A stretch of 64,000 nucleotides of DNA from Neolewinella lacunae. Its GTDB lineage: Bacteria > Bacteroidota > Bacteroidia > Chitinophagales > Saprospiraceae. Of this stretch, positions 902 to 63,395 are shown piece by piece. The stretch lies in NCBI RefSeq assembly GCF_014349155.1, contig NZ_JACSIT010000152.1:62001-126000 (forward strand). The letters are read 5' to 3'. The number at the start of each line of letters is the position of its first letter. Position 1 is the stretch's first letter. The position numbers were made by a program, and so were the translations under genes. A model generated the notes under the pieces. That model was not told the origin of the DNA and ran no database searches. It worked only from the letters and a program-made list of their open reading frames with translations.

Positions 902-948
902 GCCCTGCCCTTGCTCCTCCAACTTACCGGGCACCTGCGGCCGCGCCC
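902..948 (-). repeat. Dispersed 42-bp repeat, copy 1
   Basis: In the minus orientation this reads the core GGGCGCGGCCGCAGGTGC (931-948), a 13-base spacer, then the tail GGAGCAAGGG (908-917). It lies just after the NlpC/P60 gene and faces copy 2 at 986-1003, so the two cores can pair as an 18-bp stem. Confidence 0.85.
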
Positions 949-985: not shown

Positions 986-1003
986 GGGCGCGGCCGCAGG
1001 TGC
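986..1003 (+). repeat. Dispersed repeat, copy 2 (core only)
   Basis: A perfect 18-base core GGGCGCGGCCGCAGGTGC. The usual GGAGCAAGGG tail is not recognisable after it. It is the inverted partner of the core at 931-948, 37 bases away, between the convergent NlpC/P60 gene and the unknown minus-strand gene at 1053. Confidence 0.8.
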
Positions 1004-7154: not shown

Positions 7155-7195
7155 GGGCGCGGTCGCAGGTGCAAGGGCAGGACAAGGAGCAAGGG
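7155..7195 (+). repeat. Dispersed 42-bp repeat, copy 3
   Basis: Core GGGCGCGGTCGCAGGTGC (7155-7172), 13-base spacer, tail GGAGCAAGGG (7186-7195). It lies between ugd and the end of hemW. It matches the complete element of copies at 908-948, 16014-16054 and 22879-22920. Confidence 0.85.
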
Positions 7196-8462: not shown

Positions 8463-8550
8463 TTCCCCCCGCTCCTCCCCCTTTGGGGGTTGGGGGGCCA
8501 ACATTCTCCCCCCTTCGGGGGGTCGGGGGGGAGCACCTGCGCCCGCGCCC
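8463..8550 (-). repeat. Dispersed repeat, copy 4, with nested GC hairpins
   Basis: The core is at 8533-8550 (GCACCTGCGCCCGCGCCC on the plus strand). Between it and the degenerate tail (CCGCTCCTCC near 8468) lie two G/C hairpins, CCCCCTTTGGGGG and CCCCCCTTCGGGGGG. It fills the divergent region between hemW and the peroxiredoxin gene. The same hairpin-core junction occurs at 38839-38881. Confidence 0.75.
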
Positions 8551-9411: not shown

Positions 9412-10890
9412 TTATTTCACCTCGTAAGTCATTTTGACCAGCCGCAGGCGGTTGCGGTGCTCGCTGGGGAGGATGACCTCGTTGGCGGCCACCTGTATGC
9501 CATCGCGAAAGCGCAGGCGCAGGTTGAGGTCGCGGGTATTGAACAGGCTGTTGCGGTCAAATTCGCCGCGGCCATTGACGATGTACTCGCTCACCGTGTT
9601 TTCGAAGCGGATTTCGTCGTTGAACAGGAAGCGCAGCGCACTGGGGTTCTCCATCAGCAGGTAGCTGGAGTACACCCCGCCGTCGTCTTGGCTGTACTGC
9701 TTTTTGTGGAGGATATTGCTCCAGTGGGGCGCTCCGTCGGGGTGGACGCTGAAGACGATCATTTCGTCGTAGTGATAATCCACCAGCGGGCGTTCGCCGA
9801 AATTATTCACGATCTGGGTGCGGCTGGCGTTGCTGCGCCGTTCCAGCTGGCGGTTCTTTTCGGTGATGATCAGGCCACCGCCGTCCTGGCGCAAGACGAG
9901 GTTGCTCACGGACAGCTCGTCGATGTTGGGCTGTTTTTTGTTGAATTTATTCCCCTCGATGTTTTTGACGAGGTTGACGGGGAAAGGCGTGAAAACGGGC
10001 CGCGCGGTGGCGTTGCCGGCCGGCACGTACCTGATCCAGAAGTAACCATCGGCCCGGGAAAAATCCTTAGTGGTATACAGCCCGGCGGCCACGAGTTGGC
10101 GGTTGAGGTTGTCGTAGCGGAAGATGATGTCGTAAGTCAGGCTGTCGCCCATGTTGAGCTCAAAACTGTTGGCGTCCTCGGCGGCCGTGAGGCGGTGCAC
10201 TTCGTACTTGTGCTCTTTGCGTTTGCTGCGGAAGTTGTCCCGCTGAAAGATGAAATACATCTCCCCTTCGTTGGTCAGTTCCGCCTGGACGAAGTCTTCC
10301 CCGAAGAAAAAGCGGTCGGGCGTCAGCTCCCGGTCGTAGAGCGTTTTCATCGCCGTCAGATCAATGCCAATGCAGCGGACTTTCGTTTGTTGTTCGGTCA
10401 CGAGCAGCAGCAATTTTGTATCGTCTTCGGAGCGGATGATGTCGTCTTCCGGCGTGGTGAGGAAGACGCCGAAATCTACCAGCGTGGTGCTGTCCTGAAG
10501 GTTGCCAGCGGGGTTGAAGCGGTCGAGTTGGAGGAAGTTGCGGCCCCGGTCGCGGAAGAGGTACAGCAGGTAAAAAGCCGTACCATCCTGGCGGGCTACG
10601 GATTCCAGGATGCGGATATTCTTGCCGCGCAGCTCCATTTCTTTTTCCCAGACCTGCCGCATGTTGCGGTCGTAGGCCGTCAGCAGGTGCTTCGTATCGC
10701 GGTCTTGCAGCAGCAGCGCCTGCCCCCCGAGTTGCCCGATCAGGTCATAGCGCGTATCGGTGCGCATAATCAGTTCGTCGCTGACGGTCAGCACCTGGGC
10801 GGGCAGGTTGGCGGGCGTGATGAGGAGGGCGCTGACGCAGGTGCAAAGAAAGATGAGAAGAGCAAGGGAGGTCTGGCTGCGCATGGTCAT
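9412..10890 (-). CDS. Exported protein of unknown function
   Basis: The product is about 492 residues. It starts with a signal peptide that contains LIFLCTCVSALL. Three ATGs (10896, 10890, 10884) are possible starts; the middle one gives MTMRSQTSLALL. The upstream reading frame belongs to an arginine-rich, unlikely extension. The mature part is rich in beta-strand-like segments (for example AFYLLYLFRDRGRNFLQLDRF), which suggests a repeated beta structure such as a propeller, but no family was recognised. There is no obvious T9SS sorting domain at the C-terminus. It lies 144 bp downstream of the SCO gene on the same strand. The signal peptide is encoded by a full copy of the dispersed repeat (10827-10871). 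Confidence 0.75.
   Translation of the reverse strand: MTMRSQTSLALLIFLCTCVSALLITPANLPAQVLTVSDELIMRTDTRYDLIGQLGGQALLLQDRDTKHLLTAYDRNMRQVWEKEMELRGKNIRILESVARQDGTAFYLLYLFRDRGRNFLQLDRFNPAGNLQDSTTLVDFGVFLTTPEDDIIRSEDDTKLLLLVTEQQTKVRCIGIDLTAMKTLYDRELTPDRFFFGEDFVQAELTNEGEMYFIFQRDNFRSKRKEHKYEVHRLTAAEDANSFELNMGDSLTYDIIFRYDNLNRQLVAAGLYTTKDFSRADGYFWIRYVPAGNATARPVFTPFPVNLVKNIEGNKFNKKQPNIDELSVSNLVLRQDGGGLIITEKNRQLERRSNASRTQIVNNFGERPLVDYHYDEMIVFSVHPDGAPHWSNILHKKQYSQDDGGVYSSYLLMENPSALRFLFNDEIRFENTVSEYIVNGRGEFDRNSLFNTRDLNLRLRFRDGIQVAANEVILPSEHRNRLRLVKMTYEVK
10827..10871 (+). repeat. Dispersed repeat copy inside a signal-peptide coding region
   Basis: Plus-strand core GGGCGCTGACGCAGGTGC (16 of 18 bases match the consensus), a 14-base spacer, then AGAGCAAGGGAGG. 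Read on the minus strand it encodes the hydrophobic and cleavage part (LLIFLCTCVSA) of the exported protein at 9412-10890. Confidence 0.75.
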
Positions 10891-16012: not shown

Positions 16013-16054
16013 ACCCTTGCTCCTTGTCCTTTCCGGGCACCTGCGGCCGCGCCC
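16013..16054 (-). repeat. Dispersed 42-bp repeat, copy 5
   Basis: Minus-strand reading: core GGGCGCGGCCGCAGGTGC (16037-16054), 13-base spacer, tail GGAGCAAGGG (16014-16023). On the plus strand this copy is the closest match to the signal-peptide coding stretch at 60815-60861. It sits in the divergent region between parC and the DUF819 gene. Confidence 0.88.
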
Positions 16055-17497: not shown

Positions 17498-17567
17498 GGG
17501 CGCGGCCGCAGGTGCTTCCCCCCCGGCCCCCCGAAGGGGGGAGTAGGGACATGGAGCAATGGGGGGA
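17498..17567 (+). repeat. Dispersed repeat, copy 6, with nested GC hairpin
   Basis: The core GGGCGCGGCCGCAGGTGC (17498-17515) is followed by a G/C hairpin (CCCCCCGG...GAAGGGGGG type) and a diverged tail (GGAGCAATGGGG). It begins 3 bases after the DUF819 stop codon and may double as a transcription terminator. Confidence 0.75.
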
Positions 17568-20933: not shown

Positions 20934-21143
20934 TAAATTAACGTCAGGTTGGGGGTGTGAAACGTAGATATTCAGTGGCTGTCAGATGCTTAGACCGTAA
21001 TGGTTCTTTAGTTCGGTAGTTTTGTAGTCCGTTGATGGACAATACCCCACTACCGAACTACAAAACTACCCTACTGTATTCTAAAGGCTATTGAAGACCA
21101 ATCGGTTATGATTATTGTAGGGGGGCAACCTCACATTAAATTA
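20934..21143 (+). repeat. MITE-like element, copy 1
   Basis: About 210 bp. The ends are imperfect inverted repeats: 20934-20951 and the reverse complement of 21126-21143 agree at 15 of 18 bases. Inside is a 12-bp hairpin, TAGTTCGGTAGT (21009-21020) and ACTACCGAACTA (21049-21060). Blocks such as TTCAGTGGCTGTCAGA and GATTATTGT are shared with the copies at 41986-42165 and 55657-55827. There is no open reading frame of note. It occupies the region between the divergent mevalonate-kinase-like gene and the mce operon; the remaining bases 21144-21300 show nothing clear. Confidence 0.8.
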
Positions 21144-22309: not shown

Positions 22310-23591
22310 CGAAAAAAGACTTCTCTTCATCCTCGCTGCCGTACAGTTCTCCCACATCATCGATTTTATGATTGTTATGCCCCTGGGCAAGACGATCATG
22401 GAGATCTTCAACATTTCGCCGGGGCAGTTCTCGTGGGTGGTTTCGGCCTACGCCGGGGCAGCGCTTACGGGCAACCTGATCAGTACGGCGGTGATTGACC
22501 GTTTTGACCGCCGCTCGGCGCTGCTGGTGATGTTCGTGGGCTTCACGCTCGGCACCCTGGCCTGTGCTTTTGCCCCCTCTTATCCCCTGCTGCTGCTCTT
22601 CCGTTCCTGCACCGGTTTGTTTGGCGGCACGCTGGGCGCTTTGGTGTTGGCCATCGTCAGCGACGTCATCCCGCTCGAACGCCGGGCTTCGGCCATGGGC
22701 TGGGTGATGACGGCCTTCAGTGCGGCCAGCGTCGTTGGGGTGCCTTCGGCCATCTGGATTGCGGCTGTGTACGGCTGGCACGCTCCCTTCCTGGTTACGG
22801 CCTTCATCGCAGCCTGTTTTCTGCTCATGGCCTATTTCTTCGTGCCGCCCCTGCGCGGACATTTGGAGGCGAGCAGCGGGGCGCGGTCGCAGGTGCCAGG
22901 CACAAACCACGGAGCAAGGGAAGGCCTGATTGACGACGCTGCCCTGACCCCCACCGAGCAGGTTTTTGCCGTCCGCCACCCCCTGCGCCGGGCCTTCGAT
23001 CCCTTCGTGCGCATCTTTTCCGACCCCAACCAGCGGGCCGCTTTGCTCTTTACCCTGACCTTGATGCTGGGCCACTTCACGATCATTCCCTTCATCGCGC
23101 CGTACATGCAGCTCAACATCGGCTTTACCGATAAATCGGTGAGCCTCATTTACTTCGTCGGCGGACTTCTCACCGTCGTCCTGATGCCCCTCTTCGGGAA
23201 GCTGGCCGACCGCTACGGGCGGATGGAGGTGTTCTCCATTGCCTCGGTGTTCGCCCTGTTCAGCATTTACTTTCTCACCAACCTGGATACAAACTCCGTC
23301 GTGCTTGGTCTGCTGGCAACGTCCTCTTTTTTCGTCGTAGCCAGCGGGCGCAACATCCCGGCCACGACCATGATCACCTCCGTGGTCCATCCCCAAAACC
23401 GGGGCAGCTTCATGAGCATCCGGCAGTCGGTCAACGAAATGGCCTTGTTCAGCAGCAGCGTTATTGCGGGCTTCATCATCACCGAAGGGCCCGACGGACG
23501 TTTGCAGCACTACGAATGGCTGGGTTACTTCACCATCGCGATGAGCATCATTGCGGTTGGCGCTGCGAGCCGGCTGCGGGCAGTGGCCTAA
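22302..23591 (+). CDS. MFS family exporter
   Basis: The product is 429 residues from the ATG at 22302, which overlaps the methyltransferase stop (ATGAATAA). About 12 membrane helices are visible. The first loop region HIIDFMIVMPLGKTIMEIF and the motif IDRFDRRSALL fit the drug/sugar-efflux branch of the major facilitator superfamily. The central cytoplasmic loop (residues about 188-210) contains an in-frame copy of the dispersed repeat, reading SSGARSQVPGTNHGAREG. This loop can normally tolerate insertions, so the protein is probably still functional. The substrate is unknown. Confidence 0.9.
   Translation: MNNEKRLLFILAAVQFSHIIDFMIVMPLGKTIMEIFNISPGQFSWVVSAYAGAALTGNLISTAVIDRFDRRSALLVMFVGFTLGTLACAFAPSYPLLLLFRSCTGLFGGTLGALVLAIVSDVIPLERRASAMGWVMTAFSAASVVGVPSAIWIAAVYGWHAPFLVTAFIAACFLLMAYFFVPPLRGHLEASSGARSQVPGTNHGAREGLIDDAALTPTEQVFAVRHPLRRAFDPFVRIFSDPNQRAALLFTLTLMLGHFTIIPFIAPYMQLNIGFTDKSVSLIYFVGGLLTVVLMPLFGKLADRYGRMEVFSIASVFALFSIYFLTNLDTNSVVLGLLATSSFFVVASGRNIPATTMITSVVHPQNRGSFMSIRQSVNEMALFSSSVIAGFIITEGPDGRLQHYEWLGYFTIAMSIIAVGAASRLRAVA
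22879..22920 (+). repeat. Dispersed 42-bp repeat, copy 7, inside the MFS gene
   Basis: Core GGGCGCGGTCGCAGGTGC (22879-22896), 14-base spacer, tail GGAGCAAGGG (22911-22920). The 42-base length keeps the reading frame of the exporter. Confidence 0.88.
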
Positions 23592-25049: not shown

Positions 25050-25095
25050 CCTCCCCTGCTTGCCCGTCCCTGGCCCGGCACCTGCGGCCGCGCCC
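25050..25095 (-). repeat. Dispersed repeat, copy 8
   Basis: Minus-strand core GGGCGCGGCCGCAGGTGC at 25078-25095, with a related tail (CAAGCAGGGGAGG) near 25050-25063. It lies directly after the terminator at 25001-25039. Confidence 0.8.
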
Positions 25096-32056: not shown

Positions 32057-32161
32057 GGGCGCGGACGCAGGTGCCGGGCCCGCGTGAAGGAGCAGGGGAG
32101 GTCAACACTACAGACCTCCCCTGCTTTATTTTGGCTCCACCTTGCACCTGCGCCCGCGCCC
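32057..32161. repeat. Inverted pair of dispersed repeats (copies 9 and 10) enclosing a terminator
   Basis: Core GGGCGCGGACGCAGGTGC (32057-32074) and, inverted, GCACCTGCGCCCGCGCCC (32144-32161) flank a stem AGCAGGGGAGGT / ACCTCCCCTGCT (32091-32102 and 32114-32125). The tails of both copies form the stem, so the whole 105 bp is one large palindrome. Confidence 0.85.
32091..32132 (+). terminator. Terminator made from the repeat tails
   Basis: A 12-bp stem, AGCAGGGGAGGT with ACCTCCCCTGCT, is followed by TTATTTT. It would end the serine protease transcript. Confidence 0.8.
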
Positions 32162-38718: not shown

Positions 38719-38764
38719 GGGCGCGGCCGCAGGTGCCGGGTGCTGTAATTCAAGAGCAAGGAGC
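38719..38764 (+). repeat. Dispersed repeat, copy 11
   Basis: Core GGGCGCGGCCGCAGGTGC (38719-38736) and tail AGAGCAAGGAG near 38752-38762. It faces copy 12 across about 100 bases between the lipoprotein operon and the sigma-factor operon. Confidence 0.82.
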
Positions 38765-38831
38765 GTCGAACCAGGCATTTGCCCTGTGGATTGAGCAAAC
38801 GGAGGGACCCTTTGACTTTCCTCGCTCCTCG

Positions 38832-38881
38832 TCTTAACTCCCCCCTTTCGGGGGGCCGGGGGGGAGCACCTGCGGCCGCGC
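38832..38881 (-). repeat. Dispersed repeat, copy 12, with nested GC hairpin
   Basis: Plus-strand reading: CTCCTC tail words, then the hairpin CCCCCCTTTCGGGGGG, then the core GCACCTGCGGCCGCGC (38866-38881). The same hairpin-core junction occurs at copy 4. Confidence 0.75.
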
Positions 38882-41232: not shown

Positions 41233-41988
41233 ATGCGCTTTCTCTTTCTCCTCCTCGCGGTGGCTGCTCCGTTTTTTGTCCAGGCCCAGGGCGACCGCCA
41301 AGACATTGCCCTCCAAGGGGCCCGCGTCGTGCAGATCTTCGCCGCCTTCAGCTCCGTTTCCGTTACCACTGGCGGCACCGATGCCGTCTCCGTTCACCAC
41401 GTGCTCACCGCCGACGGCGAAGACCGTCCTGAACTGCGCAAACTCGAAATTGACCGCGAAAATGGTATCCTCCGCATCCGGGAGGTGCTGCCCACTGCCG
41501 AGTTGCTGGAGCGGGAGTTTGGGGGCAAGGGCGTCGAAACTTATCAGTCGGACGAAGGAGGTAAGAACAGGTACTGGGGCGTCAAAATCGACGCTACCCT
41601 GAAAATCGTAGTTCCCGCCGGCATCCTCATTTCGGTGGAAACCGTCTACGGCGGTATTGCCGTCACCAACGTAGGCGGCCTCCAACAAGCAAAGGCCAAA
41701 TACGGCGCATTAGACATTGTCTTCGGACCCGGCACCCGCGTAGGCGATCTTGATCTGTACAGCAACTACGGTGCTGTAGACCTCACCCTGCCCCCCGGCC
41801 AGGCGGCTAACCTGGACATCACCACCGAGTACGGCGAACTGCTTAGCGACCTGGACCTGAAGCTGGATACCGCCGCCAGCGAGGAAAAAGACTATTACCA
41901 GCGCGTGATCGCCCGCATCAACGGCGGGGGCACGAGGGTGCAATGCCGCGCACCCTACGGAAACGTATACCTGCGCAAGGCGAAGTAA
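41233..41988 (+). CDS. Exported DUF4097-like beta-repeat protein (paralogue)
   Basis: The product is 251 residues. The signal peptide is MRFLFLLLAVAAPFFVQA. The mature domain has repeated beta-strand words (IVVPAGILISVETVYGGIAVTN, DLYSNYGAVDLTLPPGQAANLD, GNVYLRKAK) and matches the 40314-41126 protein in layout and in the final NVYLRK. It is the last gene of the sigma-factor module. Its stop codon TAA forms the first bases of the MITE-like element at 41986, so the element either inserted exactly there or provides the stop. Confidence 0.82.
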   Translation: MRFLFLLLAVAAPFFVQAQGDRQDIALQGARVVQIFAAFSSVSVTTGGTDAVSVHHVLTADGEDRPELRKLEIDRENGILRIREVLPTAELLEREFGGKGVETYQSDEGGKNRYWGVKIDATLKIVVPAGILISVETVYGGIAVTNVGGLQQAKAKYGALDIVFGPGTRVGDLDLYSNYGAVDLTLPPGQAANLDITTEYGELLSDLDLKLDTAASEEKDYYQRVIARINGGGTRVQCRAPYGNVYLRKAK

Positions 41989-42165
41989 GTAACGTCAGGT
42001 TAGGGGTTTGCAACGTAGCTATTCACTGACTTTCAGAGGGTTAGATCGCAATGATTTTGTAGTTCGGTAGTTGGGTATTGTCTACTACCGAACTACAGTA
42101 CTGCCGTCTAAGGCCGTTGAGGACCAATTAGTTGTGATTATTGTCAGGGCCCAACCTCACCTTAA
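41986..42165 (+). repeat. MITE-like element, copy 2
   Basis: About 180 bp. It starts with TAAGTAACGTCAGGTT, which includes the stop codon of the previous gene, and ends CAACCTCACCTTAA, an imperfect inverted repeat of the start. The inner hairpin is GTAGTTCGGTAGT (42059-42071) and ACTACCGAACTAC (42084-42096). It aligns with the copies at 20934 and 55657 over its whole length. The remaining bases to 42205 show nothing else. Confidence 0.82.
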
Positions 42166-45262: not shown

Positions 45263-45306
45263 GGGCGCGGCCGCAGGTGCCATGGACGAATTTAAGAGCA
45301 GGGAAG
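45263..45306 (+). repeat. Dispersed repeat, copy 13
   Basis: Core GGGCGCGGCCGCAGGTGC (45263-45280) with a diverged tail (AGAGCAGGGAAGG near 45294). It lies upstream of porZ on the opposite strand side of the intergenic region. Confidence 0.82.
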
Positions 45307-45701: not shown

Positions 45702-45750
45702 TTTCCCTGCTCTTCCCCGGGGTACGGCGCTTGCACCTGCGGCCGCGCCC
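45702..45750 (-). repeat. Dispersed repeat, copy 14
   Basis: Plus-strand reading: tail CCCTGCTCTTCC (45706-45717) and core GCACCTGCGGCCGCGCCC (45733-45750). It lies about 80 bases before the photolyase gene. The rest of 45105-45831 apart from the features listed shows nothing clear. Confidence 0.82.
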
Positions 45751-54770: not shown

Positions 54771-55649
54771 ATGCGTCACTTGTTCTTCCTTCCCCTGCTC
54801 CTCGTGGGCTTTCTTTGCACCTGCGTCAGCGCCCAGACGGCCAACACTACGGGTATCGTTTACGAGGCGCTGAGCCTGCCCAGCACCATTTTGGGAATGG
54901 ACCGGCAGTACGCCATCTACCTGCCACCGGGCTACGAACAGAGCCAGCGCAGCTACCCCGTGCTTTACCTGCTACACGGCTACGGGGACGACCAGACGGG
55001 CTGGATCCAGTTCGGCGAGGTGCTGCGGATTACCGACGAGGCCATCCACAGCGGCAAGGCGACGCCCATGATCATCGTCATGCCCGATGCCAATACCCAA
55101 CGCGTCGGTTATTTCAACAGCCCCGACGGAAAATGGCGCTACGAAGATTTCTTTTTTGAAGAACTGATGCCCCACGTGGAGGGCAAATACCGCATCAAGG
55201 GCCAAAAACGCTTCCGGGCCATCGCCGGCCTCTCAATGGGCGGGGGCGGCACCTTCACCTACGCGCTCCACCATCCGGAGCTCTTCAGTTCGGCCTGTCC
55301 ACTGAGCGCCTGGGCCGGTGGAATGACGGTGGAGGACGTCAAAGAACGCTTTGCCCGCGCCGGAGAAACGAGTTATACCGACACCCAACTGAGCACTTAC
55401 CACGCCCAGCACAACTTCGTGGAACTGGCCAAATCACTCGACAAAGAGAAAATCGCCTCCGTCCGCTGGTTTATTGACTGCGGGGACGACGACTTCCTCT
55501 ACCGCGAAAACAGCCTGGTGCACATTGCCCTGCGGGAGCGGGAGATTAAGCACGAGTTCCGCATCCGCGAGGGTGGGCATACCTGGACCTACTGGCGCGA
55601 GAGCCTGCCCGAAGTGCTCGCTTTCATCACGCAGGCCTTCCACCAGTAG
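54771..55649 (+). CDS. Exported esterase (putative esterase family, alpha/beta hydrolase)
   Basis: The product is 292 residues from the ATG at 54771. The signal peptide ends GFLCTCVSAQ and is encoded by a copy of the dispersed repeat. The hydrolase part shows YPVLYLLHGYGDDQTGWIQ (oxyanion), nucleophile Ser in GLSMGGGGTF, an Asp in FIDCGDDDF and a His in IREGGHTWTYWR. This is the esterase D / feruloyl-esterase-like family that acts on carbohydrate esters or related compounds. It probably works in the periplasm. A MITE-like element begins 8 bases after its stop codon. Confidence 0.92.
   Translation: MRHLFFLPLLLVGFLCTCVSAQTANTTGIVYEALSLPSTILGMDRQYAIYLPPGYEQSQRSYPVLYLLHGYGDDQTGWIQFGEVLRITDEAIHSGKATPMIIVMPDANTQRVGYFNSPDGKWRYEDFFFEELMPHVEGKYRIKGQKRFRAIAGLSMGGGGTFTYALHHPELFSSACPLSAWAGGMTVEDVKERFARAGETSYTDTQLSTYHAQHNFVELAKSLDKEKIASVRWFIDCGDDDFLYRENSLVHIALREREIKHEFRIREGGHTWTYWRESLPEVLAFITQAFHQ
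54793..54834 (-). repeat. Dispersed repeat copy inside the esterase signal peptide
   Basis: Plus-strand: CCCTGCTCCTCGTGG, then the core GCACCTGCGTCAGCGCCC (54817-54834; 16 of 18 match). It encodes LLLVGFLCTCVSA in the plus-strand esterase gene. Confidence 0.72.
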
Positions 55650-55656
55650 TGAAAAG

Positions 55657-55827
55657 CGTAAGGTTGAGCTCTTGCAATAATCACAACTAACTGGCCTTCA
55701 ACGGTCTTTGGAAGGCAGTTCTGTAGTATTGTAGTTCGGTAGTGGGGTGTTGTCTACTACCGAACTACAAAACCAATGCGATCCAACCGTTTGAAAATCA
55801 GCGAATATCCCCCAACCTGGCGTTAGT
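55657..55827 (-). repeat. MITE-like element, copy 3
   Basis: About 170 bp in the opposite orientation to copies 1 and 2. Ends: GTAAGGTTGAG at the left and CAACCTGGCGTTA at the right, imperfect inverted repeats. The inner hairpin is GTAGTTCGGTAGT (55731-55743) and ACTACCGAACTAC (55756-55768). It starts 8 bases after the esterase stop and may end its transcript. Confidence 0.82.
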
Positions 55828-57434: not shown

Positions 57435-58346
57435 TTATACCAAAGCGTCGCTAAAATACCGGTAAAGGAGGAGCACCGGAGCTATTTCAATCGCGCAAAG
57501 ATACAATAAAATATGCACGGGCCTGGCAAATGCGAGGCGGCTGGCGATGGCGAGCCCCCGCAGGAGGTGGAAGCCGTAAATGACCACGAGCACCAGCAGG
57601 CCGCCGTAGAGAAAGACGTCTCGCCACTCCGGTGGCGCGTAGCTGGCGGCCAGGGAGGTGGGGGTGAGAAAGAGACCGGCAAGGATGGAAAAGACCATGA
57701 GCACGAAGGCGTAGCGGCTCACCTCCTTGCGTACGGGGAACACCCGCGCGTAGGCCCAAAGCACCCAGTGCTTGAGGCCCACGGCCCCGGCCACCGCCAG
57801 GGTGTAAGTGAGCCAGCTGCCCCAGGGCCCCAGGTTGAGGCTCACGTTGTGGCGCAGCGCAAACAGGTAAACGAAGAAGCCGGCCGCAAAGAAAAAGAAG
57901 AGGTAGCAAAGCCACAGGGCCGTCAGCTCGCCACCCGAGCGCCGGGTGTAAATCTGGTTCATCAGGCTGTCGTTGATGGTGCCGCGGAAACACTGCCGCA
58001 GCAAATTCCCAAACAGCACCCAGAGGCTGGCCAGGGTAACGAGCAGCAGCAACTGGATGATGAGGATGCTGCCTTTCCCCTGGTTCGGGTCAGTGGATTG
58101 AATGACCACGGGCCCGAATCCCGCAGGTCGCGCGGTCGCAGGTGCCCGGGAAGTTGTAGGAGCAAGGCCCGACCCTGCTGGCCGAATGTCGAAAGGACCG
58201 TAGGCCGTCGCTGGCCGCACACTGTCGTTGGCCGGCAAATCCGTCTGCGGCAAACGAGCGCGAATCTCAAAAGGGTTGGGGGCAGCCTGCGCAGCGGCAT
58301 CGCCTAGAGAAAGGGCCAGAAATAGAACTGCAACGAGGTAACGCAA
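57435..58346 (-). CDS. DUF4271 family membrane protein
   Basis: The product is 303 residues. A signal peptide or first helix (RYLVAVLFLALSLGDAAAQA) is followed by a Pro/Ala-rich linker and about seven membrane helices (for example ILIIQLLLLVTLASLWVLF, LWLCYLFFFFAAGFFVYLF). Conserved-looking stretches include CFRGTINDSLMNQIYTRRSGG and LKHWVLWAYARVFPVRKEV. The linker (residues about 58-71) is encoded by an in-frame copy of the dispersed repeat. It lies 73 bp upstream of hemD on the same strand, and the pair is widespread in Bacteroidota. Function unknown; a link to tetrapyrroles is only contextual. Confidence 0.85.
   Translation of the reverse strand: MRYLVAVLFLALSLGDAAAQAAPNPFEIRARLPQTDLPANDSVRPATAYGPFDIRPAGSGLAPTTSRAPATARPAGFGPVVIQSTDPNQGKGSILIIQLLLLVTLASLWVLFGNLLRQCFRGTINDSLMNQIYTRRSGGELTALWLCYLFFFFAAGFFVYLFALRHNVSLNLGPWGSWLTYTLAVAGAVGLKHWVLWAYARVFPVRKEVSRYAFVLMVFSILAGLFLTPTSLAASYAPPEWRDVFLYGGLLVLVVIYGFHLLRGLAIASRLAFARPVHILLYLCAIEIAPVLLLYRYFSDALV
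58131..58167 (+). repeat. Dispersed repeat, copy 15, inside the DUF4271 gene
   Basis: Plus-strand core CGCGGTCGCAGGTGC (58131-58145), 13-base spacer, tail GGAGCAAGG (58159-58167). Read on the minus strand it encodes part of the Pro/Ala-rich linker. Confidence 0.8.
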
Positions 58347-58380: not shown

Positions 58381-58531
58381 CAGTCTGGTAGTTTAGTAGT
58401 TCATAGTCTAGTAGTTCATAGTTCAGTAGTCTGGTAGTTCAGAAGCTCCAAGTTCAACGAGTGAACTACCGAACTACCGAACTATGAACTACCGAACTAT
58501 GAACTATGAACTATGAACTACAAAAACTACC
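58381..58531. repeat. Expanded palindromic array of GTAGTTC/GAACTAC words
   Basis: The left half is built from GTAGTTCATAG-like units, the right half from GAACTACC and GAACTAT units (7-8 bases, at least eight in a row from 58462). The halves are reverse complements and can form one long stem. It fills the divergent region between DUF4271 and the histidine kinase and uses the same words as the MITE-like hairpins. Confidence 0.85.
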
Positions 58532-58627: not shown

Positions 58628-59929
58628 ATGCATCAGCATACCCTCACCCGCGTGATCATTTTGGGCCTCCTTGCCATCCTGGGCATTGTGGGGATGCAGA
58701 CTTACTGGGTAGCGACCACCTGGAACCTCAACGACACGGAATTCAGCCAGAAGGCGAAGCTGGCCCTCTACGGCGTGGCCCGGCAGCTGGCCGCCGAGAA
58801 CAACAGCGACCTGCCGAGCCGCGATATCGTCCGGCAGCGCTCCAGCAATTACTTCATCGTCAACATCGAAAGCGAAATCGATGCCCTCCGCCTGGAAATT
58901 CTGATGCAGCAGGAACTCGTACGGCTGAGTCTTGACCTGCCCTTCGAATACGCCATCTTCGACTGTACCACCGATCAGATGGCCTACGGCGGCTACTGCC
59001 AGGCTTCCACCGAGCCCGAAGACCCCGTCTTGGCCGAGCGGACGAGCTACCTGGCCCCCGACGAAAACCTGCTTTACTACTTCGGCATCAAGTTCCCCAC
59101 CCGCACGGGCTACCTGTGGGAAAAGATGCAGCTCGTGGTTTTCCTCTCCCTCATCCTGATGCTGACGGTAGCCTTCTTCGGCTACTCGGTGGTGGTCATG
59201 CTGCGGCAGCGGCGGCTGGCTACTATGCAGAAAGACTTTATCGACAACATGACCCACGAGTTTAAGACGCCGCTTTCAACGATTCGCATCGCGGCGGGCG
59301 TGTTTCTGCGCGACGAGCGGGTGGCGGCCGACGGGCGGCTTTCGCGCTACGCCCAGCTCATTCACCAGCAGTACGAACGGCTCAACGAACAGGTGGAAAA
59401 AGTCTTGCAAATCGCCCGCATCGAGCAGGGGAACTTCGAGATCAAGAAGGAAAGTACCGATTTGCACCGCATCATGCCCGATCTGCTGGGCAGCGCCCGC
59501 GTCCGCGCTGAAGAACGCTCGGGCACCCTGGAGGTCGACCTGCCCGGTCACCCTCTGCCTTTGTTGGCTGACCCGCTCCACCTTTCCAATATCCTCCACA
59601 ACCTGCTCGATAACGCCATCAAGTACAGCGGCGAAAAGCCCCGCATCCGCGTCAGGGGCGAGTTGCGTGGGCAGGCCCTGCACCTGAGCATTTCCGACAG
59701 TGGCCCCGGCATCGCCCCCGAACACCAGGAGCGGCTTTTCGAGAAGTTCTACCGCATCCCGACGGGCGATGTGCACGACGTGAAGGGCTTTGGCCTGGGG
59801 CTCTTTTACGTCGCCCAGATCTGCCGTGCCCACGGCTGGACCATCCGCGTGGAGAGCAGTCTGGGCCAGGGAGCTACCTTTCGCCTGCAGCTGCCGTTGC
59901 TGCCCATCGTTCAAGTAGTTACCACATGA
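58628..59929 (+). CDS. Sensor histidine kinase
   Basis: The product is 433 residues from the ATG at 58628. A first membrane helix (VIILGLLAILGIVGMQTYWV) and a second near residues 168-190 (LVVFLSLILMLTVAFFGYSVVV) enclose a periplasmic sensor domain of about 135 residues with two cysteines. The H-box is DNMTHEFKTPLST with the phosphorylated His210, and the ATPase part has NLLDNAIKYS, DSGPGIAPEHQERLFEKFYR and GFGLGLFYV. Its stop overlaps the response regulator start by 4 bp. The signal is unknown. The palindromic array lies in its promoter region. Confidence 0.94.
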   Translation: MHQHTLTRVIILGLLAILGIVGMQTYWVATTWNLNDTEFSQKAKLALYGVARQLAAENNSDLPSRDIVRQRSSNYFIVNIESEIDALRLEILMQQELVRLSLDLPFEYAIFDCTTDQMAYGGYCQASTEPEDPVLAERTSYLAPDENLLYYFGIKFPTRTGYLWEKMQLVVFLSLILMLTVAFFGYSVVVMLRQRRLATMQKDFIDNMTHEFKTPLSTIRIAAGVFLRDERVAADGRLSRYAQLIHQQYERLNEQVEKVLQIARIEQGNFEIKKESTDLHRIMPDLLGSARVRAEERSGTLEVDLPGHPLPLLADPLHLSNILHNLLDNAIKYSGEKPRIRVRGELRGQALHLSISDSGPGIAPEHQERLFEKFYRIPTGDVHDVKGFGLGLFYVAQICRAHGWTIRVESSLGQGATFRLQLPLLPIVQVVTT

Positions 59930-60630
59930 GTAAAGCCCACCTTCTGTACGTTGAAGACGACGAAAGCCTCAGCTTCGTGACCCAAGACAACCTCGAGTTC
60001 AATGGCTTTACCGTTACGCACTGCGCCGATGGCACTGCGGCCTTGCGCGAGATTGAAAAGGAGGGCTTTCAGTACGACCTCTGTCTGCTCGACGTGATGC
60101 TGCCCGGCGTTGATGGCTTCCAGCTGGCCGAGCGCATCCGGTCGAGAAACCAGGACATTCCCATCCTGTTCCTCACCGCCAAGAGCCTCAAGGAAGACCG
60201 CTTACAGGGACTGCGCCTGGGGGCCGACGACTACATCACCAAGCCCTTCAGCATCGAAGAACTCATCCTCAAGATCGAGGTATTTCTGCGTCGTAACCGC
60301 GTGCGGCCGTCCAGCCCGGCGCTGGACCCACGGCGCATTGGCGACTACCAGTTTGAGCTCGAGAAACTCCAACTCACTTACCGTGCCGAGCCGCCCCGCC
60401 GCCTCACCCGTCGGGAAGCGGAGTTGTTGCAGTTCCTGAGCGTCCGGCGCGACCAGGTGATTGAACGCGGCGAAATCCTGGAGAAAATCTGGGGGGAGAA
60501 CGATTATTTCATGGGCCGCAGCCTCGACGTGTTCATCAGCCGGCTGCGCAAGTATTTGTCCAAAGACCCCCGCATCCGGGTAGAAAACATTCACGCCGTG
60601 GGTTTTTCCCTCACGGTAGACGGGCAGTGA
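59926..60630 (+). CDS. Response regulator, OmpR family
   Basis: The product is 234 residues. The receiver domain has YVEDDESL, the phosphorylated Asp56 in LLDVMLPGVDG and Lys106 in YITKPFS. The C-terminal winged-helix domain includes LTRREAELLQFLSVRRDQVIERGEIL and SLDVFISRLRKYLSKDPRIRVENIHAVGF. It is translated together with the kinase (ATGA overlap). The next gene, a DUF5686 outer-membrane protein, lies after the dispersed repeat that starts one base after this stop codon. Confidence 0.95.
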   Translation: MSKAHLLYVEDDESLSFVTQDNLEFNGFTVTHCADGTAALREIEKEGFQYDLCLLDVMLPGVDGFQLAERIRSRNQDIPILFLTAKSLKEDRLQGLRLGADDYITKPFSIEELILKIEVFLRRNRVRPSSPALDPRRIGDYQFELEKLQLTYRAEPPRRLTRREAELLQFLSVRRDQVIERGEILEKIWGENDYFMGRSLDVFISRLRKYLSKDPRIRVENIHAVGFSLTVDGQ

Positions 60631-60677
60631 GGGCGCGGCCGCAGGTGCCAGGAACGCCTTGGAAGAGCAAAGCAAGG
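60631..60677 (+). repeat. Dispersed repeat, copy 16
   Basis: Core GGGCGCGGCCGCAGGTGC (60631-60648) starts directly after the TGA of the response regulator; the tail is AGAGCAAAGCAAGGG (60663-60677). Confidence 0.85.
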
Positions 60678-60794: not shown

Positions 60795-63395
60795 ATGAAA
60801 CTATCCATGCGCGTCCTTACCCTGCTTTTTGTCCTTTTCCTTTGCACCTGCGTCCGCGCCCAAACCCTGACCGGGCGCATTACGGATGCGGAAACCGGCG
60901 AGCCGCTGCCCTTCGCCTCCATCTACGTGCAGCAAACCCAGAGTGGCACGGCCAGCAATGCCGACGGCGATTTCCAGGTCCGGCTCGCCGCTGGCTCCAA
61001 CACCGTCATTTTTCAGTACCTCGGCTACCAAACCCAGGTGAAAACCGTGCTGGGGAACACCCGGCTGGACATCAAACTCATCTCCGAAGCGCTGGAGCTG
61101 GACGAAGTGGAGATCCTCAGCGGTGGCGAAGACCGCAGCTATTCGGTCATCCGCCGGGCCATTGCCAAGGCCGATTACCATCGCAACCAGCTCGACGCCT
61201 ACACCGCCCAGGTCTACATCAAAGGCACGGGCAAGGTGAACAAAATCCCCGGCCTGCTGCGCATGATGGCCAGCAAGGAGGACCGCAAAGAGATCGACGA
61301 AGCCCTGAACCGCGCCTACACCAGCGAATCCACCAGCGAGGTGAGCTACACGCGGCCCAATACCTACGCCCAAAAAGTAATCTCGAAGTACGAAATTGGG
61401 GATGCGGAATTCGACGCGGCCCAGTACATCTTCACTTCCTTTTACGACCCGCTGGTGGCCGACGCCATCGTGAGCCCCCTGAACCCCAAAGCCTTTGGCT
61501 ACTACAAGTTTGAGCTGGAGGGCGTCTTCGTAGACCGCGATGAGCTGGTGAACAAGATTCGGGTGATTCCCCGCAGCCGCGGAGAAGACGTTTTCGAGGG
61601 CTACATCAATATTGTGCACGACGACTGGTCGATCCACAGCCTGGAGCTGACGACTTACAAACTGGGCTTCCAGATCGACATCGGGCAGACCTTCGCCGAA
61701 GTGCAAGACCACGTGTGGATGCCCATCACCACCACCCTGGATGCGAACGGGCAAATTTTTGGCATCGCTTTTGAGTACCACTACCTCAGCACCGTGAGCA
61801 ACTACGTCCTGAGCCTGAACACCAAGCTGGGGGGCTACGTGGAAGTGATTGATGAAAAGACCCAGCCGGAGGTGGCCGAGCGGACGCCCAAGGCCCGGGA
61901 GGTGAGCGACCTGGAGCGCACGCTGGCCGAAGGCGGCGAGATCAAAGCCAAAGACCTCCGCAAGCTGATGCGCGAATACGAAAAGGAGGAACGCAAAGCC
62001 TCCGAGGCGCCGGAGGTGGAAAGCAACTATTCCTTTTCCAACGACAGCGTCGTGGTGGTCCGCGATACGGCCGCCTGGGCCCAGTTGCGGCCCGTGCCAC
62101 TGACCGCCGAAGAAGTGATTGGGTACGCCATTGCCGACGGTCTGGAGCGCAACAAGAAGCTGGACTCGCTGGAGGTAACGGTGGGCAAGGATGGTTCCCG
62201 CGATACGGTAACTTTAGACTCCGCCGCCCTGGCCAAGCGCAACCTGGGGCGCTTCCGCCTCGATAATTGGTTCCCCGACCCCATTTTCAACCCCGTGGAA
62301 GGTTACGCCCTGGGTACGCGCCTGGGCTGGATCAACCGGAAGAAGGCCATCGGCTTTGGCGTCCACCCCCGGTACGGCATTGGTTGGAAGCGCCTCATCG
62401 TCGAAGGGGATGTGCAACTGGGCCGGAGCGGGGTGAGTAACACGCCGAAGATCAGGCTCAGCGGCGGGCGCTTTTTGCGGCAGTTCAACGACCAGCCGGC
62501 CATTGACCCCTGGATTTCGGCTTACAATAACCTCGTCTCGGGGGGCAACTTCATCCGCCTCTACGAACGGGTGTACGGGCAACTGGATTACACGAAAAAG
62601 TACAGCGATGCCTTGCGGGCAGACGCCCGCCTGGCTTACGAAGAACGCCGGGCGGTGACCAACTCCAGCAACAACAATTGGTGGGGGCTCTCCGAAGGGG
62701 AAAGCTACGCACCCAATACGCCCCTGAATGCTGCCCGGGGCTTCGTTTCCGAAGTTAACCCGGCCGCCACGGCCCGCTTTGGCCTCGCCTGGCGGCCGGG
62801 CCTGAAGTACGAAATCGAGAACGGGCGCAAGCGGGTCATTGACCTTTCGGCCCCCACGATCAGCTTCCGTCTGGCGCAGGGCCTGCCAGAAATTGGGGCT
62901 TCGACGGCCGACTTTACCCAGCTGGAGGCGGCCTACGAGCACCGCTTCGACGTAGGCCGTAAAGGACGGGTGGACCTGCTGGTGCGCGGCGGTGCTTTTG
63001 TGAACAACCAGTCGGTAGACTTCCCCGATTTCAAGCACTTTGCTACTTCTGAACTCATCCTCACCTCCCTCGACCCCATCGGCAGCTACCGCCTGCTGCC
63101 CTACTACGCCGAAAGCACCAACGAAGAATACCTGGAATTTTACGGGCACTACCAGTTCCGGAAATTCCTCCTCACCCGCATCTGGAAGCTCCACCTGATG
63201 GGCCTCAAGGAAGACCTGTTCGTGAACTACTTACACACCCCCACCTCTGAACACTACACCGAGGTCGGCTACTCCATTGACAACATACTGCGGATCTTCC
63301 GCCTGGAATTTGTAACGGCCTTCCGCGATTTGGAATACGCAGACTTTGGGGTCCGCTTCAGCATTTCGACGACCATTATGCGCGATTTCAATTGA
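60795..63395 (+). CDS. DUF5686 outer-membrane protein with carboxypeptidase-like domain
   Basis: The product is 866 residues from the ATG at 60795. The signal peptide ends LFLCTCVRAQ and is encoded by a copy of the dispersed repeat. Then comes a CarboxypepD_reg-like domain (LTGRITDAETGEPLPFASIYV, VIFQYLGYQTQ), a DUF5686-type central region (AIAKADYHRNQLDAYTAQVYIKG) and a C-terminal part with alternating strands ending LRIFRLEFVTAFRDLEYADFGVRFSIS, as in an outer-membrane barrel. The family resembles TonB-dependent receptors without a clear plug. Role unknown. It has a consensus promoter. Confidence 0.88.
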   Translation: MKLSMRVLTLLFVLFLCTCVRAQTLTGRITDAETGEPLPFASIYVQQTQSGTASNADGDFQVRLAAGSNTVIFQYLGYQTQVKTVLGNTRLDIKLISEALELDEVEILSGGEDRSYSVIRRAIAKADYHRNQLDAYTAQVYIKGTGKVNKIPGLLRMMASKEDRKEIDEALNRAYTSESTSEVSYTRPNTYAQKVISKYEIGDAEFDAAQYIFTSFYDPLVADAIVSPLNPKAFGYYKFELEGVFVDRDELVNKIRVIPRSRGEDVFEGYINIVHDDWSIHSLELTTYKLGFQIDIGQTFAEVQDHVWMPITTTLDANGQIFGIAFEYHYLSTVSNYVLSLNTKLGGYVEVIDEKTQPEVAERTPKAREVSDLERTLAEGGEIKAKDLRKLMREYEKEERKASEAPEVESNYSFSNDSVVVVRDTAAWAQLRPVPLTAEEVIGYAIADGLERNKKLDSLEVTVGKDGSRDTVTLDSAALAKRNLGRFRLDNWFPDPIFNPVEGYALGTRLGWINRKKAIGFGVHPRYGIGWKRLIVEGDVQLGRSGVSNTPKIRLSGGRFLRQFNDQPAIDPWISAYNNLVSGGNFIRLYERVYGQLDYTKKYSDALRADARLAYEERRAVTNSSNNNWWGLSEGESYAPNTPLNAARGFVSEVNPAATARFGLAWRPGLKYEIENGRKRVIDLSAPTISFRLAQGLPEIGASTADFTQLEAAYEHRFDVGRKGRVDLLVRGGAFVNNQSVDFPDFKHFATSELILTSLDPIGSYRLLPYYAESTNEEYLEFYGHYQFRKFLLTRIWKLHLMGLKEDLFVNYLHTPTSEHYTEVGYSIDNILRIFRLEFVTAFRDLEYADFGVRFSISTTIMRDFN
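60817..60861 (-). repeat. Dispersed repeat copy inside the DUF5686 signal peptide
   Basis: Plus-strand: ACCCTGCTTTTTGTCC, TTTTCCTTT, core GCACCTGCGTCCGCGCCC (60844-60861; 17 of 18 match). It aligns over its whole length with the intergenic copy at 16013-16054 and encodes TLLFVLFLCTCVRA. Confidence 0.8.

Follow-up and report, generated by a model that had tools for sequence, protein, structure and literature searches.

A short DNA repeat that recurs throughout the genome of Neolewinella lacunae, between genes as well as inside them, encodes the end of the signal peptide of three exported proteins in the 64,000-nucleotide (nt) stretch of contig NZ_JACSIT010000152.1 that was analysed here (the window). 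We interpret this repeat as a genome-wide, orientation-free DNA recognition motif. Based on our comparative analysis, its most likely role, to which we give an even chance, would be that of a DNA uptake sequence (DUS), also called uptake signal sequence (USS). The genome of N. lacunae (alias G000) comprises 5.8 Mb in 154 contigs; other G-numbers denote its relatives and congeners.

One motif in signal peptides and between genes

The shared signal-peptide end of a DUF5686 protein (PF18939), an esterase (PF00756) and a third exported protein, for which the Pfam search gave no match, is encoded by GCACCTGCGTC[CA]GCGCC, which is identical to the motif found between genes. At all three sites the reading frame TGC-ACC-TGC-GTC-[CA]GC-GCC yields C-T-C-V-[R/S]-A. 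The signal peptide of the DUF5686 protein, MRVLTLLFVLFLCTCVRAQ, starts at 60807, and its end ..LLFVLFLCTCVRAQ is encoded by the copy at 60814-60861 (plus strand, core at about 60844-60860). For the esterase (ATG at 54771), the copy at 54787-54834 encodes ..LLLVGFLCTCVSAQ (plus strand, core at about 54817-54833). The third protein (gene 9412-10890, minus strand) has the end ..LALLIFLCTCVSALL, with the copy at 10827-10871 coding for ..LALLIFLCTCVSA (minus strand, core at about 10829-10844).

A sequence-only reading of the window had located these three copies and ascribed to them a common peptide and DNA of the intergenic type; both points were confirmed, and signal-peptide and intergenic copies form one family at the DNA level. 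Its description of the repeat as being read in reverse complement applies to the third protein, but not to the other two, which are encoded on the plus strand. The peptide end of the third protein does match the others, but lacks the Q after ..VSA. Likewise, 60817-60861 aligns with the intergenic copy at 16013-16054 (plus strand; TTGCTCCTTGTCCTTTCCGG followed by the core), but the lengths differ in the left half, which precedes the core.

Within the window, GCACCTGCGNCNGCGC occurs in 19 exact copies and in 22 if up to two mismatches are allowed, while 100 dinucleotide shuffles of the window gave 1.8 on average, and never more than 5, at the latter threshold. Three of the window copies lie in signal peptides and one lies antisense in a called gene (22879); the others are intergenic or unclassified. 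On the scale of the whole N. lacunae genome, GCACCTGCGNCNGCGCC is present in 1,093 exact copies, which are distributed almost equally over both strands (537/556), and its reversed control is absent from the genome. For a more detailed census we used 501 kb of this genome, where 104 exact copies consist of 77 intergenic ones and 27 in called genes, about 10 of the 104 being in frame in signal peptides. Genes were called by a home-made codon-usage script and signal peptides by crude rules, and these class counts carry some error (one copy, at C22 36516, is probably outside any gene). Of 130 genes predicted in a crude count to have a signal peptide, 10 contain GCACCTGCG. Besides the exact copies, the 501 kb hold 24 copies with one mismatch, 18 with two and 96 with three; in 20 of the 24 the mismatch is at core position 10 or 16 (numbered from 0). 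The reversed core gave 0, 1, 14 and 101 hits at zero to three mismatches. As the counts at two and three mismatches are similar to those of the control, copies are either intact or gone, and there is no series of decaying ones.

The motif has two parts. A left half resembling TGCTCCT (TTGCTCC-like) starts 18-23 nt (about 20 nt) before the core, and is present in 34/54 intergenic, 9/11 start-proximal and 8/14 other in-gene copies when copies with an adjoining hairpin are set aside, compared with 8% at random places (P 4e-6 for the in-gene class). On the right side the border is sharp (GCGCCC). The four possible orientations of the flanking genes are represented nearly equally among intergenic copies (17/17/17/14 in 421 kb and 21/21/19/16 in the 501 kb), which together with several antisense in-gene copies ruled out a promoter or terminator element. 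Copies towards which the right-hand gene ends are separated from it by a median of 27 nt. Spacing along the genome is slightly more even than for random placement in the same classes (coefficient of variation 0.89 versus 1.11 +/- 0.11, P 0.016), and all seven pairs of copies less than 200 nt apart are inverted.

The codons of the signal-peptide copies were analysed in congeners. Sites able to encode CTCV.AQ, with any codons, number 47 in N. lacunae, 81 in G116, 67 in G200, 54 in G193 and 27 in G006, and there are none in G205 and G207. Every second site of G116 was sampled (40 of 81) and regarded as signal-peptide-like if an in-frame start was found 9-40 codons upstream and a long open reading frame (ORF) downstream. 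This applied to 19 of the 40, one of which (L293) is doubtful; the remaining 21 failed this crude test and are by look mostly intergenic or in another frame, with L330 among them perhaps representing a short secreted protein. Cys-Thr-Cys is encoded by TGC-ACC-TGC in 19 of 19, for which codon usage predicts 0.158 per site (log10 P -15), and Val by GTC in 17 of 19. The residue after Val is Ser in 12, Arg in six and Cys in one case, i.e. NGC codons that result from the free base of the motif. Third bases thus do not vary at random between copies, which the sequence-only reading had named as a finding that would speak against its proposal.

A mere convergence of codon choice in signal peptides rich in Leu and Cys, without any shared cause at the DNA level, was rejected on the basis of these 19 sites, and we attach practically no weight to it. 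TGC, ACC and GCC are indeed the commonest codons of the N. lacunae genome for their residues, but 19 of 19 sites at 0.158 each, and the same motif in non-coding DNA, in antisense and in other frames, argue against this explanation. The sequence-only reading had also held codon convergence to be insufficient, and had suggested that orthologues may have other signal peptides. The latter was borne out by the DUF5686 orthologues of six congeners, which end in ..VMAQAQ (G201), ..AVQAQ (G202), ..LTTAQ (G006), ..LVNGQ (G215), ..PLLSQ (G207) and ..WLNAQ (G205). Orthologues in the group of N. lacunae, in G204 and in G211 show either the motif or a variant of it (for example CTS, CTG or GTG). In this comparison, G213 and G210 are without an N-terminus, the hit in G212 is a distant paralogue and the gene of G214 is broken: the orthologue at G214:C9:163471-166040 is split by two in-frame TGA stops.

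Copies within genes and at intergenic sites

Orthologues of PheT (19 genomes), TGT (19) and a CocE-like hydrolase (18) were aligned, and none of the three alignments shows an insertion in the columns of the motif. Judged from these alignments, the motif in the three genes arises by substitutions. The N. lacunae copy in PheT is antisense and covers the residues LARPQVQ. At this site, GCACCTGCG is present at the same codons in nine of the 19 genomes and absent in ten, and none has a gap. Among the nine, a single invariant stretch of PheT, located at the start codon, is longer than CGCAGGTGC, the reverse complement of GCACCTGCG; over the whole gene the codon is kept in only 41 of 465 residue-identical columns. 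The residue on the free base of the motif is Pro, Thr or Ala, with its third base fixed. The DNA, rather than the protein, is what is conserved at the motif.

The CocE-like hydrolase of N. lacunae (C19 39506-41389) carries two copies, one in the signal peptide and one antisense further in. In the alignment, N. lacunae has the core, G199 has it except for the last base, and a near miss that is one base off (GCACCCGCGGCCGCGCC) is found in five of the 18 genomes; a length-variable loop lies just ahead of the gap-free motif columns. In TGT, the core is present in N. lacunae and G208 and absent in the other 17, again without a gap. Cysteines are usual at the zinc site of TGT. A loss of these cysteines through the motif was ruled out, as the other 18 aligned congeners are also without them there.

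These in-gene copies bear on the possibility that the repeat originated as a conserved signal-peptide coding segment, whose DNA later spread between genes by recombination or retro-copying. One frame of the motif does spell a good signal peptide including the hydrophobic region, and each of the two groups of the genus has CTCVRAQ signal peptides (in DUF5686 of N. lacunae; in CocE of G206, G201, G214 and G203). However, signal-peptide copies make up about a tenth of the sample, the internal copies in PheT, TGT and CocE are antisense or in another frame and without insertion, and the Ser/Arg/Cys pattern follows the free DNA base rather than peptide chemistry. We therefore consider a signal-peptide origin highly improbable, and it is not needed as the ultimate source of the intergenic repeats.

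Intergenic sites were compared in 35 pairs with N. lacunae (seven genomes) and in 53 pairs within the trio G200, G210 and G212; few were comparable because synteny around DUF5686 is poor. At a colinear intergenic stretch of G210 and G212 (GCGCCTGCGTTCGCGCC versus GCACCTGCGGCCGCGCC) the core differs by substitutions without an indel, and a 19-nt length difference follows immediately past the core. The core of a second trio site is present in G210 and G212 and has its first base changed in G200, and at a third site G200 has two copies, while G210 has one exact copy and one with a single base changed. Between N. lacunae and G193, the intergenic DNA with the element at C16 30162 is 127 nt longer in N. 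lacunae. Since the motif-bearing species has the longer spacer at some sites, gain by segment copying or recombination is also implied, and some intergenic copies may come from segment copying.

A 27-nt G-rich hairpin (CTCCCCCCTTCGGGGGGYCGGGGGGGA or a variant) stands directly before the core in 25 of the 104 copies, and 52 of the 59 hairpins in the 501 kb are followed by a core within 70 nt. Using a looser rule, the combination was counted 29 times in the 501 kb and twice in the fetched stretches of 13 congeners. Examples from the window are the hairpins at 8508-8532, 17517-17543 and 38841-38865.

The sequence-only reading had proposed a mobile element that inserts export signals, and for the in-gene copies tested this is not supported by the alignments, including the one-base near misses in CocE. 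In its broader form, this explanation assumes an element of the repetitive extragenic palindromic (REP) or miniature inverted-repeat transposable element (MITE) type that places copies of itself between genes and occasionally within the codons of signal peptides, thereby spreading export signals. The intergenic enrichment, the inverted orientation of all seven close pairs, the near restriction of the hairpin composites to N. lacunae, an apparent in-frame extra stretch in MurI (see below), the 127-nt difference to G193 and the 19-nt difference between G210 and G212 all fit such an element. Against it, in-gene copies are free of insertions across 18-19 orthologues each, the core at the colinear intergenic site differs by substitutions only, and a decay series is absent. 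Furthermore, the two Y1_Tnp loci of the genome (about 3.3 kb) are devoid of the motif at up to two mismatches (other transposase families were not searched), which rules out a partnership with a Y1 transposase of the REP-associated tyrosine transposase (RAYT) type. Copies made by insertion were not seen in the three genes, the intergenic sites are mixed and MurI is an apparent exception. Altogether, a mobile element seems improbable to us.

Several other repeats were noticed. One of the two Y1 transposase genes (L053, near G000:C123 378391) lies between long tandem arrays of the GC-rich repeat CCCGGCTGAGGGTGTCCCCACCCGAACTTCCCC..., which may represent a genuine RAYT/REP array. The window also contains another repeat family, unrelated to the motif, that is based on AGTTCGGTAGTTTTGTAGT, has long inverted arms and comprises three related copies and one local array (20936-21134, 41987-42160, 55658-55809 and 58382-58506). 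In G200 (L110 3427-3481, contig C61) a further interspersed repeat was found, which is about 55 nt long and matches many places in G212.

The remaining copies of the window are mainly intergenic. The copies at 908-948 (plus) and 986-1003 (minus) form an inverted pair with an RNA fold z of -4.9. A longer inverted repeat around a terminator-like hairpin is made by the copies at 32057-32074 (minus) and 32120-32161 (plus; pair 32057/32144), which fold strongly (-73.1 kcal/mol, z -9.1); two single copies folded no better than shuffles. The G-rich hairpin adjoins the core of the copy at 8508-8550 (plus) and also accompanies those at 17498-17557 (minus), where a gene ends 3 nt away, and at 38824-38881 (plus), whose gene context was uncalled. 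Gene ends are also near 38719-38736 (minus, 6 nt away) and 60631-60650 (minus), the latter following immediately past the stop codon of ORF 59926-60630. Further intergenic copies are located at 7155-7195 and 45263-45280 on the minus strand and at 25055-25095 and 45708-45750 on the plus strand. The antisense in-gene copy (22879-22918, minus) lies in an ORF that by eye resembles a transporter of the major facilitator superfamily, a putative assignment, and a copy with conserved left half but uncalled gene context is found at 58130-58167 (minus).

Distribution and tails among relatives

The copy number varies strongly among 21 congeners, ranging from 0 (G207) and 3 (G205) up to 692 (G193) and 1,093 in N. 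lacunae itself. Beyond the genus the motif is nearly absent: in a survey of 199 genomes of the family, four of which are congeners (N. lacunae included), four of the 195 genomes from other genera had any copy, with a maximum of three. If the tail is left free (GCACCTGCGNNNNCGCC), counts rise from 19 to 228 in G006, from 69 to 516 in G214, from 86 to 350 in G208 and from 58 to 310 in G203, and remain low in G205 (4) and G207 (2).

The tails themselves were counted in the fetched stretches. GCGCC predominates over CCGCC in N. lacunae (115:1), G116 (21:0) and G204 (6:0), the two are mixed in G193 (39:18), G200 (22:5) and G212 (19:4), and CCGCC prevails, at small numbers, in G214 (3:9), G203 (3:5) and G006 (0:6; four of its five stretches were picked around listed hits). 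G208 is of neither kind in the majority, as just 10 of its 26 GCACCTGCG sites have a tail ending in CGCC. An 18-genome tree constructed from PheT, TGT and CocE places N. lacunae, G199, G116, G193, G210, G200, G212 and G208 in one group and the remaining motif-bearing genomes in a second, inside which G207 (0 copies) and G215 (13) fall; the branch leading to G205 is long. Among named relatives, the closest PheT sequences belong to metagenome-assembled genomes (MAGs) of Saprospiraceae (70% and less) and to a Lewinella MAG. The tails vary with lineage and follow the phylogeny gradually, with no sharp dialect boundary. An apparent one-strand run in G193 was ruled out, both strands being present in its fetched stretches.

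This distribution is of importance for the main rival, in which a protein that organises, replicates or recombines the chromosome would bind the motif at about a thousand selected places (the motif then being comparable to matS, KOPS, Chi or the site of a nucleoid protein), with the signal peptides tolerating it. Strict conservation of the DNA in coding and non-coding regions and the fairly even spacing are in agreement with such a site, and the length of the motif, with its left half about two helical turns away, may also be accounted for in this way. On the other hand, the drop from 1,093 to 0 copies among congeners, and the position of G207 and G215 inside a motif-bearing group, would be odd for a housekeeping function; there is no overall strand bias, and the lineage-specific tails look like the dialects of uptake sequences. 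Hence, we regard a chromosome-organising binding site as unlikely, although it is a serious candidate.

A candidate uptake sequence in the Saprospiraceae

The motif is kept irrespective of strand, frame and coding status, arises in genes without insertion, varies with lineage and can be lost across a whole branch; in these respects it therefore resembles a DUS or USS. Several properties that mark uptake sequences are found here: a single exact motif is strongly over-represented on both strands, the in-gene copies of three genes are without insertion, the motif is more conserved than its surroundings (PheT) and accompanied by few mismatched copies (501 kb), and its dialects follow the phylogeny, gradually and at small numbers. 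In our interpretation, the DNA sequence itself is favoured, and base substitution or recombination generates and maintains the motif. If the motif is an uptake sequence, it would be bound by a protein of the pilus or the cell surface, and self DNA bearing it would be taken up and recombined preferentially, by which damaged copies would be restored and additional ones would spread. Signal peptides would be permissive sites where the motif is merely tolerated by secretion. It may collect there because, in one of its frames, it encodes a run rich in Leu and then LCTCV[RS]A(Q), which is tolerated at this place. Uptake, a receptor, competence and the mere tolerance by secretion are what we infer.

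The comparison with known systems points in the same direction, with differences. DUS form terminators, and the motif likewise has strongly folding inverted pairs. Like the DUS of Neisseriaceae it occurs as exact copies on both strands, in coding and intergenic DNA, with few one-mismatch copies and lineage dialects, but it is unrelated in sequence, belongs to another phylum and has a density of about one per 5 kb. It is also longer (a 17-nt core plus left half compared with 10-12 nt), and its receptor and uptake are putative. According to PMC2397512, Neisseria DUS are conserved and occupy permissive positions in the core genome; new ones face gaps or unrelated sequence. DUS dialects by lineage are described in PMC3630211, where the count for Kingella oralis increases by 21% when a single mismatch is admitted, compared with 23% here. 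In Table 2 of PMC2397512, DUS are rarer than expected in phase-variation and/or signal-peptide genes of four genomes, significantly so in three, whereas signal peptides are the favoured coding site of our motif.

The USS of Pasteurellaceae consist of a core and weaker flanking segments. They share with our motif the occurrence in coding sequence and differ from it in sequence, phylum and the strong intergenic preference seen here. As stated in excerpts of PMC2346458, USS lie in coding sequence with one favoured orientation and a bias to gene ends. The other systems considered are mobile. REP elements and bacterial interspersed mosaic elements (BIMEs), which are associated with RAYT (Y1) transposases, are interspersed, intergenic, arranged in inverted pairs and very different in copy number between relatives. 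The motif is like them in these properties and unlike them in its in-gene copies without insertion, its absence from two Y1 loci and the near lack of decayed copies. Rickettsia palindromic elements are insertions inside proteins, a repeat family adding residues to unrelated proteins. Our motif also adds residues to unrelated proteins, but the in-gene copies tested are not insertions.

A number of observations weigh against an uptake sequence. To our knowledge, the motif, with 15 fixed positions and the left half, is longer than any known DUS or USS, and the titles and abstract openings of the open-licence literature yielded no paper that deals with uptake sequences in Bacteroidota. The density of copies is 13-fold higher between genes than in genes, close pairs show no excess over random placement, and the dialects are gradual because the tails are mixed in G193, G214 and G203. 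ComEC (PF03772) is encoded in 21 of 21 congeners, motif-less ones included, and therefore does not track the motif. An exact 9-mer was present in both species in two of eight syntenic intergenic pairs with N. lacunae and in two of eight pairs of the trio, which indicates considerable intergenic turnover between species. In MurI (glutamate racemase; G000:C16:6179-7069, L031), hairpin and motif together seem to make up additional in-frame sequence in the C-terminal part, and alignments with solved structures stop before it. Finally, the combination of hairpin and core is almost confined to N. lacunae and therefore suggests segment copying; the hairpin has the appearance of another element joined to the motif, and the uptake model does not account for it.

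At slightly less than even odds, we propose that the Saprospiraceae (Bacteroidota) have an uptake signal system, possibly the first beyond Neisseriaceae and Pasteurellaceae, with a long bipartite motif and a drive at the DNA level that has rewritten many export signals. Affected would be about 10 export signals in 501 kb of N. lacunae and about half of the 81 sites of G116, as estimated from the sample of 40. A preference at the DNA level dictates protein sequence here, as one free base of the motif decides whether the cleavage Ala is preceded by Arg, Ser or Cys. Even with a chromosomal protein as the binder, a strictly kept 17-nt motif at a thousand sites would still want an explanation. If the motif is an uptake signal, self-recognising natural transformation would have had a third independent origin, in a distant lineage. 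As copy numbers in a single genus extend from 0 to 1,093 and one branch shows near-total loss, the birth, dialect change and decay of such a system would then be traceable.

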